A stretch of 64,000 bases of DNA from Thiomargarita sp. (GTDB lineage Bacteria; Pseudomonadota; Gammaproteobacteria; Beggiatoales; Beggiatoaceae): the NCBI GenBank assembly GCA_020721005.1, contig DYNP01000005.1:124001-188000 (forward strand), written 5' to 3'. Every line of letters begins with the position of its first letter. Position 1 is the stretch's first letter. The notes below the pieces were generated by a model, which was not told the origin of the DNA, did no database searches, and saw only the letters and a list, made by a program, of their open reading frames with translations. Both the position numbers and the translations under genes were made by a program. Below, piece after piece: positions 3,260 to 33,078 of this stretch.

Positions 3260-6200
3260 TTAGTTATTTTTATGCAGTTGCATTTCGCTGACTATTTTGA
3301 CAGTTTCAACACTCACCGCGCAAACTTTCCCCAATAAATCAATCACTTGTTCTTTATAATCGGCGAAGCGATAGGTGTTGAATTTTTCTTTAATCGTCGG
3401 GTCTTTTGGGGTTTTTTCTTTGTATTGGTCTAAAATCCATTCTAATGCCGAGCGATTCCCCAATTGATATTGCCATGCGATGGCGGGAATATCTTTTAAT
3501 TGGGTTTCGCTGTCGATGTCGATTAAATTTTTTGCTGTATCGGCTTTTAAGCGGACTTTATTGGTTTTGCTTGGGGTGTCGATTCGGGTGAATGGATAGG
3601 GTGTTATTTTCTCAAAATTCACGTGTAAATTCATGAGTTTTTCTCCGAAAGTTGCCCATTTGTAAAAGTCGGCATAAAACGGAATGCGCGGGAATTCTTG
3701 TTTCAAATTGAGCGCAAATTTTTCTCGATAAGCAGGATAATGCAGCACCGCATAAACATAGTGAAATATATTTATTTTTTCAATGCCCGTGTTTTGGTAA
3801 TGTTGACGGAATTGGTTTAATGCCCAATCGGTTATGTTTTCTTGACGTGAGCCGTCTTTGGCGTATTGATAAATTGGAAAACAAGCCGTACCTGATGCAG
3901 CCCCAACAAAATGTAAATCTAAAATTTTATCTACACCAACAACCATAAACGGTTTTTGAGAATCTGGTGCAGTTAAAGCAATTACCAAATTCCCAAAATT
4001 TGCATTAGGATTTGTTTCAATTGGGAAAATATTTGTTTGCTGATAAATACGATGAACAATAACTTTATCATAATATAAAAATTTATTGATAAAAGGACGA
4101 TAAGCACTTATTACAATACGATTTTCTTTATATTCTAATGGTGTGCCTTTAATAAGATAGGCGGTTAATTCTGTTGTCCATTTAATATCACGATTAACAA
4201 ATGTTTCTATATTTGTTTGTTTATCAGAATATTGCCATCTGCTTTGCTCACTATTATATAAATCAAAAAACTTATTTACTTTAGTTGAAAGCTGATCCTG
4301 AGAAAAATCATAAACCCATTCATCTCTATTTGTCACAACTCCCAACGAATGCAATTTAAAAATTGCTTCATTACTTTTACCTGTTTTCACTTCTTTACTG
4401 GCAATGGGTAAATAATCTGCCCAGTCTTCTGTCGGTTGATTTAACCATAAACCCTGCGCATTCGGGCGAATTAAAGTAAATTCTCCTGTTTTGGCTAATT
4501 TTTGCAAAGAATGATTTTTTAACCAACGGCGTTTTTCAATCGCAGGCAAAAAATCATCTAAAGTTAAATAATGAATTTTATAGCCATTTAAAGCAGGATT
4601 TTTAACAAAAAAATAAATGGACACGCCTACGCGGATTTTATCATCAAAAACATTCCCGCCCTCAGCTTTTCTACGTTCTCCGCTGGTGCGTGCATTTCCT
4701 TTTAAATTAACAAGCCAAATTTCTTGAAATTCATTAGCAACAATTTTACGAAATCCATCAAATCCTTTGGCATCAATAAAAGAAGAATTACTGATAAAAG
4801 CAACAATCCCCTTTTCTCCCAATCTATCCGAAGCCCAGCGAAAAAAACGCACATAAGGATCATATAACTTAGTTTTTTGCGCGGTACTTTCTGACAAATA
4901 CGTATCTTTAATGCGCTTATCAATAGCAACTGCAACATCATTTTTATTATTATCATTTTCGTTTTGTTGATTCGCGTTATAAGGCGGATTTCCAATAATC
5001 ACAGGAATTCTGCGTTTGTTTTGGGCTTGAATGCGCACATGATTCTCATCCGTTAAACTGCCAAAAAAATCATCTTGCGCGTTTTGATGCGTTTGTTTAA
5101 ACCCAAGATTCTCTAACGTATTCACAAAACATAAGCCCTTAAATTCCTGCCATTGATTCGTTATATCATAAAAAGTTTGTTCAATATTTAAACAAGCAAT
5201 ATAATAAGACAAAATAGACACTTCATTGGCATGAACTTCCTGCGCAAATTTACGCATTAACTCCTTATTTTGACCGCGCCAAAAATCCAATAAATCCACA
5301 ATAAAAGTTCCCGTTCCTGTACACGGATCTAAAATATCTAAACCTTTATCAATCAACGATTTATCAAAATGCTGTTGTGCCAACCAATCACACCCAGAAA
5401 TGATAAAACGCACGGCTTCTTGTGGCGTGTAAACAATGCCCAATTTGTCGGCATCTTTGGGATTGTAAGCGGTGTAAAAATCTTCATAAACTTGTTTTAA
5501 AAACGTTTGTTTTTCGTGCGATGACACTGTATTGGCCGCAGCCTGCCGAATCGCGGCAAAATAAGGCTCTACACGTTTTAATAAATTCATTCGCGTTTCG
5601 CCGCGAAAAAAATGCTTTTCTAATTTTCCAATCTCCACAGCCAAATGATTTTCTTGATGAAAATTAGAATCGGGAAACACCGCACGAAAAATCTGATCCA
5701 TTAAAATATGCTGAATCAACATTTCATCGACATGATTGCGCGTGACATTTTTTCCAATGGAACGTTGACATAAAGTCAAAAAATGTTGAGCTTGTTGATG
5801 AAATTGGGAATTATTAGAATGCGCCTGTTCTAACAACTGAATTAAGGCTTGAGACACATTAGGCAATTCACTTAACAGTTTATCCCGTGCCAAACGGAAA
5901 TTTTGCACTTCTGGCACTTCATACTCAAAAAATCGGGTTAATAATTTCTCAAAAGATTTGGCATCGTCAATCGTGCACGACACTTTTTTATGATGCTGCA
6001 ATAAAACCGCGGTGCGTGTATCTTCAAAAATAATATTATCGGAAGGATAGCCTTTAGCCAATTTCAGCTCAATTTCCGCATTCAAATCATCTTTTTCATC
6101 CTTCGCTTCCCACCAGCCATGCACCAAACGCAAACGGTCAATTACTGCGCCATCAATGCGCAAATTTCCTGTTGCTTTTTTCAGTGGATATTCGGCCACC

Positions 6201-26391: not shown

Positions 26392-26599
26392 CTCTAGTTA
26401 TTAGACAATTTCGTCTGCCCTGCTTTGAAATGATTGACGACCAGTGGTTGTGAGTTGAGTGTTGTTGGAAATCGTTCTCAACGTTGGGTAGACAAGTTTT
26501 TAACTGAATTTATAAGTATTTCTAAATTTATAACTATTTTTAGTGCCTGTCGAGTTCTCCGCTGATTCCCATCAGTCAGGTGTATGGAGCGAAATAAAA

Positions 26600-28306
26600 A
26601 TGATCTATCAACCTCCTTTGTTAAATTTTCCCCTCATCATTACAGTTGCAATTTTTTCCTCTCTATTATTCAATGGTTGTGAACAAGGCAGGTCAAATGC
26701 CTCCCTTCAAGCTGCTAAAACTCAGTCTACAACCGCTTCTTCTCCCAAACCAACTCATACCGATTATTTGAGATTGCCTATCGCAGGTGATTTAAGCACT
26801 CTTGATCCTGGTCTCAGTTGGGAAGTGATTCACTTTGAATTGGTGGAGCAACTTTTTATCGGGCTGACTGATTTTGAACCTCAAACTTACCAAGTTATTC
26901 CGGAATTGGCTACGGAATGGCAAGTGGATGATTCGGGCAGTCGTTATACTTTTAAGTTGCGACAAGATGTGAAATGGACTGATGGACAGCCGGTGACTGC
27001 CCATGATGTGGTTTGGGCTATTCGGCGCAATTTAACTCCAGAATTGGATGCGCCTCAAGCTTATACTTTATATGCGATTAAGAATGCAGAAGCTATTCAC
27101 AAAAATGGGGCAAAAGATTTGGAGTTGGGAGTGCGGGCACTTGATGATTATACCGTTGAGTTCACTTTGGAATATCCCGCTGCTTATTTTCCAGCCTTGA
27201 CCAGTTTATGGACTTATCATCCTTTGCCTAGAAAAGTGATTGAGCAACAAGGTGAAAATTGGACTAAGCCAGAGCATATTCAAACCAATGGTCCCTATAA
27301 GTTACAGGAATGGAGACAGGGACAACAGTTAATTCTGGTCAAAAATGCTGATTTTTATGAAGCCAGTCAAGTTAGCATACCAGAAATACATTATCACATT
27401 GTGCCTGAAAGTTCATTGGCATTGGCTATGTATGAGAATAATGAACTTGATTTGATTGGGGGAGAGACTTATTTGCGTTTGCCTCAATTGGAAATACCCC
27501 GCATCCAAACTGATTCTGTGTTGCGCAAGGACCGACGCATTGCTCCCGGTTTCTGTACCGAATGGTATGGTTTCAATACTCGTCTTCCTCCAGTAGATAA
27601 CGTGTTGGTTCGTAAAGCAATTGCCGCTGCAGTGGACAAGCAGATTATTCTGGATGTCGTTATTGGTGGGGGACATACATTGGCCAATACCTTTACTCGT
27701 CCACCTATTTTTGGCTCCATTAGTCCCACTGAGGGAATGGGCACTTTATTCAATCCAAATCAGGCCAAACAATGGTTGGCAGAAGCTGGCTATCCAAAGG
27801 GACAGGGTTTTCCCACATTGACTCTGATTCATCCAGTCTCTGAAACCCATGAGGAAATTGCCAAGGCTCTTAAAACCATTTTGAAATATCACCTTGATAT
27901 TGAGATCAATGTCCAAGCTATGGAATTTGATCCCTACATGGATGCGGTCGATGAAGGTAAAATTCATCATTTGTTTCGCATGGGCTGGTGTGCCGATTAT
28001 CCCGATGCCAACAATTGGCTATTTGAAGTATTTCATCCTGTTAAGGGAATCAATTGGGTGGGTTGGCAGAATCCGGAATTTGCCGAAGCTGTGGAATTGG
28101 CCCAAAAACATACCGATCCAGTTCAACGGGCAAAGCATTATCGACAGGCTGAACAAATTTTAAATCAAGATCAAACGGTTATTATTCCTATTTACTTTTC
28201 AAACTCACAATATTTAGTTAAGCCTTGGATAAAGAATTGGTATAACATGGCGTTAGGCGGCCAACATATCCGAGATTGGTCAATACAACCCTTGGTTAAG
28301 GAATAA
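26600..28306 (+). CDS. Lipoprotein peptide-binding protein (OppA/DppA-type, ABC substrate-binding family 5)
   Basis: Periplasmic lipoprotein predicted to bind oligopeptides. ATG 26600 has GGAG 10 nt upstream (a GTG at 26543 is less likely) and begins MIYQPP...PLIITVAIFSSLLFNGC, a signal peptide with lipobox LFNGC. The mature part has the SBP_bac_5 hallmarks: LSTLDPGLSWE near the start, LATEWQVDDSGSRYTFKLRQDVKWTDGQPVTAHDVVWA, and a late TEWYGFNTRLPPVDNVLVRKAIAAAVDK. Length is 568. No ABC permease or ATPase genes follow. Instead a receptor-channel fusion starts 15 nt downstream and an OPT transporter follows, so it may deliver peptides to those rather than to an ABC importer. Confidence 0.9.
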   Translation: MIYQPPLLNFPLIITVAIFSSLLFNGCEQGRSNASLQAAKTQSTTASSPKPTHTDYLRLPIAGDLSTLDPGLSWEVIHFELVEQLFIGLTDFEPQTYQVIPELATEWQVDDSGSRYTFKLRQDVKWTDGQPVTAHDVVWAIRRNLTPELDAPQAYTLYAIKNAEAIHKNGAKDLELGVRALDDYTVEFTLEYPAAYFPALTSLWTYHPLPRKVIEQQGENWTKPEHIQTNGPYKLQEWRQGQQLILVKNADFYEASQVSIPEIHYHIVPESSLALAMYENNELDLIGGETYLRLPQLEIPRIQTDSVLRKDRRIAPGFCTEWYGFNTRLPPVDNVLVRKAIAAAVDKQIILDVVIGGGHTLANTFTRPPIFGSISPTEGMGTLFNPNQAKQWLAEAGYPKGQGFPTLTLIHPVSETHEEIAKALKTILKYHLDIEINVQAMEFDPYMDAVDEGKIHHLFRMGWCADYPDANNWLFEVFHPVKGINWVGWQNPEFAEAVELAQKHTDPVQRAKHYRQAEQILNQDQTVIIPIYFSNSQYLVKPWIKNWYNMALGGQHIRDWSIQPLVKE

Positions 28307-28321
28307 TTGAGTGCATAACTT

Positions 28322-30685
28322 ATGAGTGAAACCCCTATTTATGTTGCTTCTCCGCTTTCTAAAAAAACTGTTTTGGGAATCCCAAAACTTGGACGTCCTT
28401 TAAAACCTCAACGAAGCGCAAGGACTAAAAAGATTATTGCCTTTTGGAGCCTGCTATTCTTGGTCAGTTTCATGTTATTGTTCATGGTGTTTAGAGCCCA
28501 TACCAGTAACGCACCTTTATCCCTGGCTTTGGTGGGTCCTATGACTGGCAATAACCAAGCAAATGGCAAAGCCATGGTACAGGCAGCCCAATTGTATCTA
28601 GAGCAAACTAATGCTGAAGGTGGCATACAGGGCCGACCTTTGAAATTAGTGGTGTTTGACGACCAAAATGATCCCGCTTTAGCCACTCAAATCGCTCAAA
28701 AAATTGCTCAAGATACCCAAGCCATTGCAGTCATTGGACATTATACCAGTGCCACTTCTCTGGCTGCTTCTCCCATCTATCATGATCAAGAAATTCCTGC
28801 TGTCTCAGGCACAGCCACCGCGGATAAATTGACTTTGGAGAATAATTGGTATTTTCGCACCACTTTTAACAACACAGACCAAGGTGCCTTTCTTGCCAAT
28901 TACGCTAACAAAATTTTAGGTTATCAAGAAGGCAATGTTATCTACGATCAAAACATATTTGGTTCCACTTTAAACACAGCATTTTCCCAAACTGCGAGAG
29001 TGTTGGGAATGGAAGTTCATCAACAATGGGGCTTTAATACGAACGAGAAGGATAACTTTGAGAGCGTTTTAAATACCATGATTGCTGATCTGAAAAGTCA
29101 AGATGGGAAGAAATTACTGTTCGTAGCCACTCATGCCAAAGAAGCGATTGCCATCATCACCGCTGCCAAATATATCAATGATCTCCAAATTATCGGAGCC
29201 GATCCTTTTTCCAGCAGTTCCTTCCTGGACATGTTACAACAAATTCCCCAAGAAAGGACCAGCCCGGGCTATTATACCAATGGAATTTACACCACTTCAC
29301 CTTTTTTGGCAGACATTGCTGGAGAAAAAGCTCAGGATTTTGAATATGGTTTTATTGAACGTTACCAAACCAAACCCAGTATTACATCAGCCATGTATTA
29401 TGACAGTACTGCAGTCATTGTACAAGCCTTAAAAACAGTGGAAACGCATCAAAACCTCAAAACCCTGCGAACTCAATTAAAACGCAGTATAGAAAGTTTT
29501 TCCAGCCTAGAAAATTCAGTAGAAGGTGTCACTGGACGCCTCTATTTTGATGAGCATGGTGATGCGATCAAAAGTATTCCCATTGGAATATACAAACAAG
29601 GTCAACCTGTAGTCGCTTCCTACCAATATCAACCCCTCGCCACTTTAAGAGGCATTGACAACGTTCTACAAGAAGTCTTGGACAAACGAATCGTCATCGT
29701 CAACAACAAATTCATGCGCAAAGCCAGAGTGGTCTATACAGGCATTGATTTCAACGAAATCAGTGAAGTAAACACTCAAACTGGCTATTTTGAAGCTGAT
29801 TTTTACCTCTGGTTTCGCTTCACAGATGAATTTCGAGATGACCAAATTGAATTTGTCAACATCCTAAACCCCCAAAGTAATCGATTGGATGTCCCCATTA
29901 TTTCTCAAACCTCCCAATTGGAACCAGGAGTTACCACGCGCACTTATCGGGTAAAAACCAAATTCAAAGGAGACTTTGACTTCCGGGATTATCCTCTTGA
30001 TCAACAAAATTTGCCTATTAAATTTCGTCATCTTGACTTAACTCGAGACCGCTTAATTTATGTAGTCGATACCCAGGGCATGAGTTCCCTACGGTTAGGT
30101 GGAAAAATGTTGGCGGAACAATTTGAACGTAAAAAAGTATTTACCGTCGGAGGTTGGAAAGTCAGTAAAGTGGGTTTTTATCAAGATGTTAAGAAAAATG
30201 ATTCCACATTGGGACTGCCAGAACTATTCGGTTCTAAACAACGCATTGAATATTCCCAATTCAACGCGGTAATCACCATCAAAAGACACATCATGAACTT
30301 CATTCTCAAAAACTCCCTGTCCCTCATCTTTCTCGTCCTATTGGGCTACTTTGCTTTCTTCATTCCCGACAGTGCCTTCTCAACTCGAGTTACCTTGGGC
30401 ACCAGTTTAATCATGACCGGCTCCCTATACCATCTCAAATTGGCCTCCGAACTCCATAGCATTGACTACCTAGTCCTGATGGAATACTTTTTCTATCTGA
30501 TTTATGCTCTGGCTGTCTTTATCTTAGTGGTCTCCGTAGTATCTCATGTCAAGGGTAGCAGTGACCCGACCACAAAACTGTTCATCGATCGCCTGAATTT
30601 GGCTGGCAGAATCCTCTATCCATTACTTATAATAGGTATGGTTGCCGCAATTGGCCTCTCCTACAGCCACCTTTTTATTGAGTAA
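28322..30685 (+). CDS. Fusion of a type I periplasmic-binding domain with a pentameric ligand-gated ion channel
   Basis: A 787-residue predicted chemoreceptor channel. A cytoplasmic basic head and one hydrophobic segment (about 38-58) precede a LivJ-like amino-acid/peptide-binding domain (about 65-440: LALVGPMTGNNQANGKAMVQ, VVFDDQNDP, IGHYTSATSLAA). From about 465 to 650 comes a Cys-loop-receptor extracellular domain (GYFEADFYLWFRFTDE; Pro-loop DFDFRDYPLDQQNLPIKF at 551-568, with no flanking cysteines). Four membrane helices follow: M1 about 659-682, M2 about 685-708 (STRVTLGTSLIMTGSLYHLK, the pore-lining pattern), M3 about 715-741, M4 about 762-785. Prokaryotic channels with extra N-terminal binding domains have been described, but this operon context is unusual. 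Ligand and ion selectivity cannot be read from sequence. Confidence 0.85.
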   Translation: MSETPIYVASPLSKKTVLGIPKLGRPLKPQRSARTKKIIAFWSLLFLVSFMLLFMVFRAHTSNAPLSLALVGPMTGNNQANGKAMVQAAQLYLEQTNAEGGIQGRPLKLVVFDDQNDPALATQIAQKIAQDTQAIAVIGHYTSATSLAASPIYHDQEIPAVSGTATADKLTLENNWYFRTTFNNTDQGAFLANYANKILGYQEGNVIYDQNIFGSTLNTAFSQTARVLGMEVHQQWGFNTNEKDNFESVLNTMIADLKSQDGKKLLFVATHAKEAIAIITAAKYINDLQIIGADPFSSSSFLDMLQQIPQERTSPGYYTNGIYTTSPFLADIAGEKAQDFEYGFIERYQTKPSITSAMYYDSTAVIVQALKTVETHQNLKTLRTQLKRSIESFSSLENSVEGVTGRLYFDEHGDAIKSIPIGIYKQGQPVVASYQYQPLATLRGIDNVLQEVLDKRIVIVNNKFMRKARVVYTGIDFNEISEVNTQTGYFEADFYLWFRFTDEFRDDQIEFVNILNPQSNRLDVPIISQTSQLEPGVTTRTYRVKTKFKGDFDFRDYPLDQQNLPIKFRHLDLTRDRLIYVVDTQGMSSLRLGGKMLAEQFERKKVFTVGGWKVSKVGFYQDVKKNDSTLGLPELFGSKQRIEYSQFNAVITIKRHIMNFILKNSLSLIFLVLLGYFAFFIPDSAFSTRVTLGTSLIMTGSLYHLKLASELHSIDYLVLMEYFFYLIYALAVFILVVSVVSHVKGSSDPTTKLFIDRLNLAGRILYPLLIIGMVAAIGLSYSHLFIE

Positions 30686-30689
30686 GCAA

Positions 30690-32486
30690 ATGACCTACCG
30701 TGAAAACACCCTGACTGCCATCCTGTTGGGAATTGCTCAAGGCATCATTCTCAACATAGCCTTTGTCTATATAACCCTAAGACTGGGATTTTCCATCTGT
30801 GGCTCAGCCATTGCTGCCATTGTAGGCTATGTAATCCTACGCGTGGTAATACGTAATGGCACCATCTTAGAGAACAATATCAACCAAACCATTGCCTCCG
30901 GCATCAACTCTGGAGGCATTGGGGTGGTTTTTGTGCTCCCCGCTTTCTTCATGTTAGAAGCCCAAGGCAAACTAACCTTCTCCATGCTCCCTTTACTCAT
31001 TGCTGGAGTGGCTGGAGCCCTATTGGGAATCCTTTTCATTGTCCCTCTGCGAAAGCAACTCATAGAAATCCAACGTCTAAGATTCCCAACTGGGACTGCT
31101 GTAGCTACCTTAATTCGCTCTGGACCAGCCAACCTGGACAAAGTCAAATTACTCGCCATAGGCTTTGCCATCAGCGCCATTTGGAAATGGCTCATGCTCA
31201 CCGGAATACTAGACTCTCCCGGCATTCTGGAATATGAAGAATTGCAACTGCATTTGGGAATCTTTCCGGCCTATCTCTCCCTGGCCATTTACCTCTCTCC
31301 CCTGAATTTTGCCGCGGGACTGTTATCAGGCAGAGCAGGACTCCCTTTTTTATGGGGAGGACTGATTGCCTGGTGGTTTATCTCTCCATCTGCAGTCAAT
31401 TTGGGCTGGCTACCCTCGGAACTCGACACTGTAGAATTGGTGGACGCCATTTATAAACAACTGCTAAGACCCTTGGGAATTGGGATTCTGATAGGCGCTG
31501 CTCTCATGGACGTTATCATTCACTTCCCCGTGCTCAAAGCAGCCTTACATTCCCTTTGGTTAGCCCACCGTCAAACCAAACCTCATCCACAACAAAACCA
31601 CACTCATCCAGACTCCTCTTCTCATCCGCAGGGAATCCAACACTCCCTTGCTTCCCCCTCCCCTCGACCCGATGAATTGCCACTCTCCATACTGGTCCCC
31701 GGCTTCCTCATTGCCATTATCCTACTATTCTTTGCCCTCAGCCTATTGCCGGGACTCTCGATCACCCAAGTCCTCCTTGGCATCATCATTGGTATCACTT
31801 GGCTGCTACTGGCCAGTCTGGTAGTCACTCAAACCACTGGTTTAACTGATGTTTCCCCCATCTCAGGCATTGCTTTGATGACAGTGCTCCTGATGGCAGC
31901 TGCCCTCGGTGGCCACATCCCGGCAGTCCTCCTGGTCACCCTAGCCGTTGCCATTGCGGTGGGACAAAGTGCAGACATGATGCAAGACCTGAAAACCGGC
32001 TTTTTAGTTGGGGCTCGGCCCTTTTTCCAACAACTGGCCCAACTCGCCACCAGTTGGTTAGGGGTACTCATTGCAGGCACAGTGGTCTACCTTTTTTGGC
32101 GATCTGGGGTTAACCAACAAGGTGGATTTGGAGAAGGTACCTTACTGCCTGCCCCTCAAGCCACAGTTTTAACCAGCATTGTAGACCTGGTACAAAACAA
32201 TACCGTTCCCACTGACAAATTGGCACTCGGTGCACTCATTGGACTCCTGTTGGGTGCAGCCCCCATTGCTGGTTTTGGCGTGCTCATTGGCCTTGCCATG
32301 TATCTACCCTTCTCCATCACCTTAGGCTATGGATTGGGCTGCTTAACTCAAATGTGGCTGGTAAGACGACACGGCTTAGCCTTTGATAAACATAAAATTA
32401 TACCCTTGGCTTCCGGTTTGATCATTGGAGAAGCCTTGACCGGGGTTGGACATGCCCTATACCAAATCTTCCTGATGGCCCCTTAA
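30690..32486 (+). CDS. OPT-family oligopeptide (or metal-chelate) transporter
   Basis: Polytopic inner-membrane transporter of the OPT family, importing small peptides or siderophore-like chelates. ATG 30690 sits 4 nt after the channel stop; the longer start inside the preceding gene is not needed. Hydrophobic helices run from residue 7 to the end, about 14-16 in all. ENNINQTIASGINSGGIGVVF (about 70-90) and LRFPTGTAVATLIRSG (about 131-146) are OPT hallmarks. A His-rich loop (about 295-325, QTKPHPQQNHTHPDSSSHPQ) lies mid-protein and may bind metal or be flexible. Length 598 fits bacterial members (about 600-670). Its place after a peptide-binding lipoprotein and receptor channel suggests peptide uptake. 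Confidence 0.85.
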   Translation: MTYRENTLTAILLGIAQGIILNIAFVYITLRLGFSICGSAIAAIVGYVILRVVIRNGTILENNINQTIASGINSGGIGVVFVLPAFFMLEAQGKLTFSMLPLLIAGVAGALLGILFIVPLRKQLIEIQRLRFPTGTAVATLIRSGPANLDKVKLLAIGFAISAIWKWLMLTGILDSPGILEYEELQLHLGIFPAYLSLAIYLSPLNFAAGLLSGRAGLPFLWGGLIAWWFISPSAVNLGWLPSELDTVELVDAIYKQLLRPLGIGILIGAALMDVIIHFPVLKAALHSLWLAHRQTKPHPQQNHTHPDSSSHPQGIQHSLASPSPRPDELPLSILVPGFLIAIILLFFALSLLPGLSITQVLLGIIIGITWLLLASLVVTQTTGLTDVSPISGIALMTVLLMAAALGGHIPAVLLVTLAVAIAVGQSADMMQDLKTGFLVGARPFFQQLAQLATSWLGVLIAGTVVYLFWRSGVNQQGGFGEGTLLPAPQATVLTSIVDLVQNNTVPTDKLALGALIGLLLGAAPIAGFGVLIGLAMYLPFSITLGYGLGCLTQMWLVRRHGLAFDKHKIIPLASGLIIGEALTGVGHALYQIFLMAP

Positions 32487-32490
32487 AACT

Positions 32491-33078
32491 ATGCGATTAT
32501 TATCTTTCAGCTCACTACTATTTTTCACCGCCTTACTTGTCGCTCTGCTCAGCGCAGCCAAGCCCCCGGTCTCCCCAGAGCAATGGCCAAACACCCTATG
32601 GATCTATTCCATTTCCTTATTTCTAGCCATTGGCGGTCTCATTCTCTGGCACCTGCACATTCGACAACATGCCAAAATCATTCACTCCACTGACCAACCT
32701 CTATTAGACCTCAGTGACTGTTTACACCAGTTTCTTTCAGAAATGCAAGAATTGGCGCAAGAATTGGCAAACCTAGATCATATAGGCATTCTCGCGCGAA
32801 TTGAAAGTCTCCTAGAGTTACACGTTTGGCCCTTGGTAAACCAACATCCAGCCCTATTAAACACCTTGGGAATTACCCAAAGTATGCAATTCTTCCTCAA
32901 ACTGGCTCAATGTGAACGACTGTTAAATCGAGTCACTTCTGCAGCCAGCGACGGTTATTTAGAAGAAGCTCATCACACCTATTCCCAAGCACTATTGATT
33001 GTGGAAGATATGTACTATGACTTCTCCAAAAAACCACTTTTGGAAAAAAGGAAAGACCAGTCAGATTTTACAACTTGA
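32491..33078 (+). CDS. Small membrane protein of unknown function, last gene of the channel/OPT operon
   Basis: A 195-residue protein starting 4 nt after the OPT gene, so almost certainly cotranscribed. Two hydrophobic segments (about 5-22 and 38-54) flank a short loop. The remaining 140 residues are helical, probably cytoplasmic, with LLDLSDCLHQFLSEMQELAQELANLD reminiscent of a four-helix or coiled-coil bundle. No family recognised. It could be an accessory of the transporter or of the channel. Confidence 0.7.
   Translation: MRLLSFSSLLFFTALLVALLSAAKPPVSPEQWPNTLWIYSISLFLAIGGLILWHLHIRQHAKIIHSTDQPLLDLSDCLHQFLSEMQELAQELANLDHIGILARIESLLELHVWPLVNQHPALLNTLGITQSMQFFLKLAQCERLLNRVTSAASDGYLEEAHHTYSQALLIVEDMYYDFSKKPLLEKRKDQSDFTT

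Follow-up and report, generated by a model that had tools for sequence, protein, structure and literature searches.

The locus at positions 26600 to 33078 of the window (the whole stretch of Thiomargarita sp. DNA that was analysed, 64,000 nt) consists of two conserved gene pairs and not of one unit. The first pair encodes an OppA-like binding protein and a channel in which a binding-protein domain is fused to a pLGIC, and it is the core of the locus, since a fusion channel lies near almost every testable close relative of this OppA (32 of 36, see below). The second pair encodes an OPT transporter together with a small membrane protein (SMP). It appears that these two older pairs were joined locally to give the four-gene set. 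The genes are:

26600..28306, +: OppA-like predicted lipoprotein of SBP family 5 (PBP-II superfamily), SBP_bac_5 match at 6e-81
28322..30685, +: PBP-I::pLGIC fusion channel, 787 aa, identified by Pfam/NCBIfam, profiles and an AlphaFold model
30690..32486, +: OPT-family transporter, PF03169 match at 3e-64
32491..33078, +: SMP, likely the OPT partner, an ORF without a Pfam or NCBIfam family

According to the ORF list the successive intergenic gaps are 15, 4 and 4 nt and all genes lie on the plus strand, in agreement with the sequence-only reading, which had placed four genes here at distances of 4-15 nt. The OppA ORF contains an in-frame GTG at 26543, a possible longer start; the OPT ORF opens at a TTG at 30642, and the ATG at 30690 was taken as its start. 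Neither promoter-like sites (16 versus 13.9 expected from shuffles) nor terminator-like sites (seven versus 8.2 expected) occur in excess. Judged by gene spacing, the four genes may be transcribed together.

The second gene had been recognized as a receptor-like ion channel, which is correct, while the fusion within the gene itself had been missed. The predicted protein consists of a transmembrane (TM) anchor, a binding protein (residues ~61-430), a Cys-loop-type ectodomain (~440-655) and four TM helices (~656-787). As a single sequence it matches Neur_chan_LBD at 5e-4 with 20.1 bits, under the cut-off of 26, and LGIC_1 at 4e-7 with 29.9 bits, far under the cut-off of 500; the PF02931 profile has no matches in the Thiomargarita genome but also none in any control genome, so that its silence here carries no information. 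Searched as a profile of 45 rows, the channel part matches GLIC at 3e-24 over the ectodomain and the four TM helices (profile positions 40-341 of 342) and a GLIC-GABA-A chimera at 5e-29. The ectodomain and the TM helices are homologous to those of solved pLGICs, and the residues characteristic of Pro-loop channels are present: the coupling residues P558, D560 and R655 are kept in 44, 42 and 45 of the 45 rows, respectively, and in M2 a hydrophobic residue (Leu, Ile, Met or Val) occupies position 9' in 42 of them. We take the Pro and Asp of the Pro-loop, the pre-M1 Arg and the hydrophobic 9' residue to have the roles commonly ascribed to them in pLGICs. In the usual cation-type channels of this family a ring of Glu is found at M2 position -1'. 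Here Glu occupies this position in four of the 45 rows and Arg occupies position 0' in 29, and these predicted pore residues argue against the usual cation-type ring; we make no claim of anion selectivity.

The N-terminal part of the channel is a PBP-I domain of the Leu/Ile/Val-binding type, as seen from the fold and from the Ser and Thr that anchor the ligand. Pfam identifies Peripla_BP_6 at residues 67-394 (2e-41), and the AlphaFold model of residues 34-787 (pLDDT 87, pTM 0.83) has LivJ/LIVBP as its best Foldseek matches, with the GABA-B and mGlu ectodomains lower in the list. S79 and T102 of LIVBP, which presumably hold the ligand, align with S143 and T166 of the channel, which are kept in 27 and 28 of the 30 rows of the PBP-I alignment. 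From the family resemblance we guess that the ligand may be an amino acid or a similar compound.

The first gene belongs to SBP family 5 both by the family profile and by similarity to solved OppA chains, which match it at up to 1e-67. A hydrophobic stretch followed by Gly-Cys at the N-terminus suggests that the protein is a lipoprotein. Close relatives of this OppA (E <= 1e-100) were collected from a sample of 42 genomes of the family, whose named members include Thiomargarita, Thioploca, Parabeggiatoa and Albibeggiatoa. The search yielded 38 relatives in 24 of the genomes, the window's included. Two of them lie at contig ends and were left out; by hand count, a fusion channel, whole or broken, is found within ~1.5 kb of 32 of the remaining 36 (window included), the four without a channel nearby being G032:C26, G021:C154, G019:C84 and G014:C335.

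The neighborhood of the channel was also analyzed starting from the fusion itself. Together with the channel alignment 77 named loci were retrieved; 11 without a fusion ORF by our criteria were dropped, leaving 66; the window is excluded from this set, and one genome can supply several loci. Within three genes of the fusion ORF there is an SBP_5 gene in 34 loci, an SPFH gene in 12, an OPT gene in three and an SMP gene in two. In 11 of the 66 loci, all labelled as Desulfobacterales-type bacteria, a protein of ~910-1000 aa with the composition PBP-I::SBP_5 (confirmed by Pfam in one locus, L075) is encoded near the channel, and ten of these 11 loci have two channel ORFs. An SPFH/Band-7 gene, the PBP-I::SBP_5 gene and two channel genes may stand in a row (for example, in L075, L076, L080, L084, L088 and L094). 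Three PBP-I::pLGIC proteins (L073 258-3809, L078 13159-16770 and L117 6906-10513) carry, according to Pfam, an SBP_1-type domain beyond the last TM helix, a position which we take to be periplasmic by pLGIC topology. The 548-aa gene upstream in L092 was ruled out as a binding protein, as it encodes a DNA methylase.

Further genes were seen near fusion channels. In three deltaproteobacterial loci (L079 2372-3478, L083 5435-6517 and L099 8048-9133) a channel gene of the bacterial ionotropic glutamate receptor type (SBP_3 with Ion_trans_2) lies near the PBP-I::pLGIC gene, and the fusion channel of L061 is immediately preceded by an adenylate/guanylate cyclase gene (4258-5340).

The best evidence that OppA may act on the channel is that binding proteins have been joined to it repeatedly: PBP-I within the chain, SBP_5 or PBP-I::SBP_5 next door and SBP_1 at the C-terminus. 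It is unlikely that the channel answers only to its own PBP-I domain and that OppA and OPT are merely co-induced nutrient genes. Such an arrangement would fit the 32 of 66 fusion loci that have no SBP_5 gene within three genes, which do show that OppA is dispensable at some loci; against it stand the SBP domains fused to channels and the recurring proximity of OppA, which is much more regular than that of OPT.

Alternatively, OppA could work for an ABC peptide importer whose genes lie elsewhere, and its proximity to the channel would then be incidental. Binding proteins can be shared between systems, and on contig C96 of the same genome an SBP_5 gene is located close to two permease genes. The statement of the sequence-only reading that the locus has no ABC permease was confirmed: all ten matches of PF00528 in the genome are on contigs other than that of the window, and the permease genes that adjoin the binding protein of an ABC peptide importer are missing here. 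As the permease genes on C96 have an SBP_5 gene of their own, and as the linkage in 32 of 36 cases together with the fused forms would require many coincidences, we consider an ABC-serving OppA quite improbable.

The third gene is an OPT transporter (PF03169 at 218 bits, cut-off 25.8, with the OPT profile aligned over the full length) and is the only OPT match in its genome. Of the NCBIfam models, TIGR00728 passes and TIGR00733 reaches 155.4, under its cut-off of 182.5. The SMP matches no Pfam or NCBIfam family. OPT was found in 19 of the 42 family genomes and SMP in the same 19, the two genes being adjacent in 15 and apart in four. Across the class 369 genomes were sampled, four of which belong to the family; SMP was present in four and OPT in 59, hence most OPTs occur without an SMP. 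Outside the family three genomes have an SMP; in two of these OPT adjoins it, and the third (G273) has no OPT match. From its distribution in the family, shared with OPT even where the two genes are apart, the SMP is likely an unrecognized OPT partner.

This second pair is rarely found near the channel. Among 15 testable OPT-bearing family genomes (G001, G008, G033 and G401, with OPT at a contig end, were left out), OPT is located beside the channel in three (G000, G005 and G032). Among the loci examined all four genes recur together only at L071 and L096, and the first three at L052, so that by the sequence-only reading's own criterion, conservation of the four genes together in relatives, the proposal of one unit is not supported. 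Likewise, of the suggestion that the binding protein serves both a channel and a secondary transporter, the first half is supported, as OppA accompanies the channel rather than an ABC transporter, and the second is not. A single four-gene peptide system, in which OppA would hand peptides to the channel and the OPT transporter alike, would agree with the tight spacing in the window and with L071 and L096, but OPT lies away from OppA and the channel in 12 of the 15 testable genomes and we know of no case in which an OPT transporter works with a binding protein, which makes such a system very unlikely.

Our preferred reading, to which we give about an even chance, is that the window encodes a two-part ionotropic chemoreceptor, OppA plus channel, and a separate peptide-uptake module that has joined it in a few genomes. 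Every channel subunit bears a Leu/Ile/Val-type clamshell. When an amino acid or similar ligand binds, the clamshell would close and move the Cys-loop-type ectodomain, and this motion would open the pentameric pore via the Pro-loop and the pre-M1 arginine, converting the arrival of a nutrient into a signal carried by membrane potential or ions. From its anchored position in the periplasm OppA may dock on the channel and present peptides as a second input, by analogy with maltose-binding protein, which docks on the chemoreceptor Tar; OPT and SMP would take up peptides. The model is built directly on the domain make-up, the gene linkage and the conserved coupling and ligand-site residues, to which the docking of OppA, the gating, the ligands and the downstream response are added as presumed steps. 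It would be a natural case of a channel related to nicotinic and GABA receptors that may be operated by a soluble binding protein, and the OppA-channel pair offers defined partners for testing accessory domains and what bacterial pLGICs sense.

Searches with the window channel also found ORFs of ~970-1180 aa, in which the match breaks off about where the TM region of the pLGIC begins. Pfam analysis of three of them from the same genome identified PBP-I followed by MscS, with a cyclic-nucleotide-binding domain (CNBD) in two. The genome contains:

L031 3773-7228, -: chimera with PBP-I (Pfam)
L031 7317-10391, -: chimera with PBP-I (Pfam)
L032 4410-7829, -: chimera with PBP-I (Pfam)
L177 496-2031, -: ectodomain-MscS protein without PBP-I

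In 22 regions picked for chimera-like matches, including L031 and L032, we identified 33 proteins with PBP-I, the ectodomain and MscS, from 17 family genomes; 18 of the 33 have a CNBD. In L146 PBP-I is split; a further region, L147, is cut by a contig end and was left out of this count. The chimeras are paired in 12 of the 22 regions. The genes upstream of the pair in L134 encode succinyl-CoA ligase subunits and were dropped. A gene of ~1270-1300 aa with an MscS pore (Pfam on L081 only) was also seen between or beside pLGIC genes in L081 (6045-9950), L089 (6183-10001) and L098 (12509-16348).

The chimeras have a pLGIC ectodomain fold and a pore with the MS_channel_2nd domain. The chimera ectodomain modelled alone (pLDDT 89, pTM 0.84) gives Foldseek matches in which AChBP or GABA-A is named in 49 of the best 50 listed (the best at 2e-9); VIA-align superimposes it on ELIC with Z 14.2 over 160 aligned residues (rmsd 2.7), and GABA-A receptors match the model at Z 14. 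In hhalign the profile of the chimera ectodomain can be matched to that of the fusion pLGIC ectodomain across 230 columns with E 5e-63. Run against PDB sequences, the chimera profile identified no pLGIC, the sole match being unrelated (E 1.6), and the homology to pLGICs is accepted because of the hhalign match to the fusion pLGICs together with the fold. Of the 33 chimeras, two have Pro at the position of 558, two have Asp at 560 (23 have Lys) and one has Arg at 655 (21 have Lys, a mild change); all 33 retain D583, and 31 retain W612. Hence, the residues predicted to couple the ectodomain to the pLGIC pore are mostly lost in the chimeras while others stay.

Ectodomains of either kind were matched in 15 of the 369 genomes sampled from the class (E <= 1e-6) and, from the phylum, in 39 of 398 genomes (E <= 1e-10). 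Of 29 loci from the phylum search, 15 hold PBP-I, the ectodomain and MscS in one ORF; no CNBD match was found in these 15 within the short stretches examined. Chimeras outside the family occur with PBP-I (L158, L159 and L160) and without it (L162). A tree of 91 ectodomains was built by a quick method with seven plain pLGICs as the outgroup; it has 29 open forks and four long terminal branches. All 39 MscS ectodomains cluster together in it (SH-aLRT 98) and nest among the PBP-I-pLGIC fusions, the branches around them having values of 84-92. Since they form one group within the fusions, one transfer suffices to explain them. We lean slightly towards the interpretation that PBP-I and the Cys-loop ectodomain constitute a portable sensing head, which would drive a pLGIC pore in the window and would have been transferred a single time to an MscS pore, with a CNBD in some of the proteins, yielding putative MscS channels gated by up to two ligand inputs. 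If so, a ring of five subunits, as in pLGICs, must work on the seven-subunit pore of MscS, and the ectodomain of a neurotransmitter receptor can gate an unrelated pore. The chimeras would then bear on how ectodomain motion reaches the gate and on the origin of such receptors.

Parts of the locus have known counterparts. PBP-I fusions to pLGICs in Magnetospirillum and Bradyrhizobium, and PBP-II genes in conserved neighborhoods or operons with ART-LGICs, for which a chemoreceptor role was proposed, are described in the passages on these genes in Tasneem et al. 2004 (PMC549065). The window resembles them in the PBP-I domain N-terminal to the pLGIC and in the stand-alone PBP-II gene adjoining the channel gene; it differs in having both at once, in the PBP-II being an OppA-type SBP_5 and in the OPT-SMP pair that follows. 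Neither OPT nor an MscS fusion is mentioned in those passages. The claim that no operon of this makeup had been described is therefore too broad with respect to the channel and its binding proteins, published since 2004, and agrees with our finding no account that includes OPT. The available text of Jaiteh et al. 2016 (PMC4795631) contains neither "binding protein" nor "Beggiatoa", and the listings from our searches of the open-licence PMC literature showed nothing on the chimera or on the channel in Beggiatoa relatives.

GLIC, ELIC, sTeLIC and DeCLIC share the ectodomain and the four TM helices with the window channel. DeCLIC has two jelly-roll lobes where the window channel has a clamshell N-terminal to the ectodomain, and in 2022 it was, according to the portion of PMC9897478 that deals with it, the only family member of solved structure with an extra N-terminal domain. 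The PBP-I fold is common to the window channel, the Leu/Ile/Val-binding protein and the N-terminal domains of GABA-B and metabotropic glutamate receptors; in the window it sits on a Cys-loop-type channel, in the others on an ABC importer or a G-protein-coupled receptor. The bCNG channels combine an MscS pore with a cyclic-nucleotide-binding domain, as do part of the chimeras described here, in which these parts are preceded by PBP-I and a Cys-loop-receptor ectodomain.
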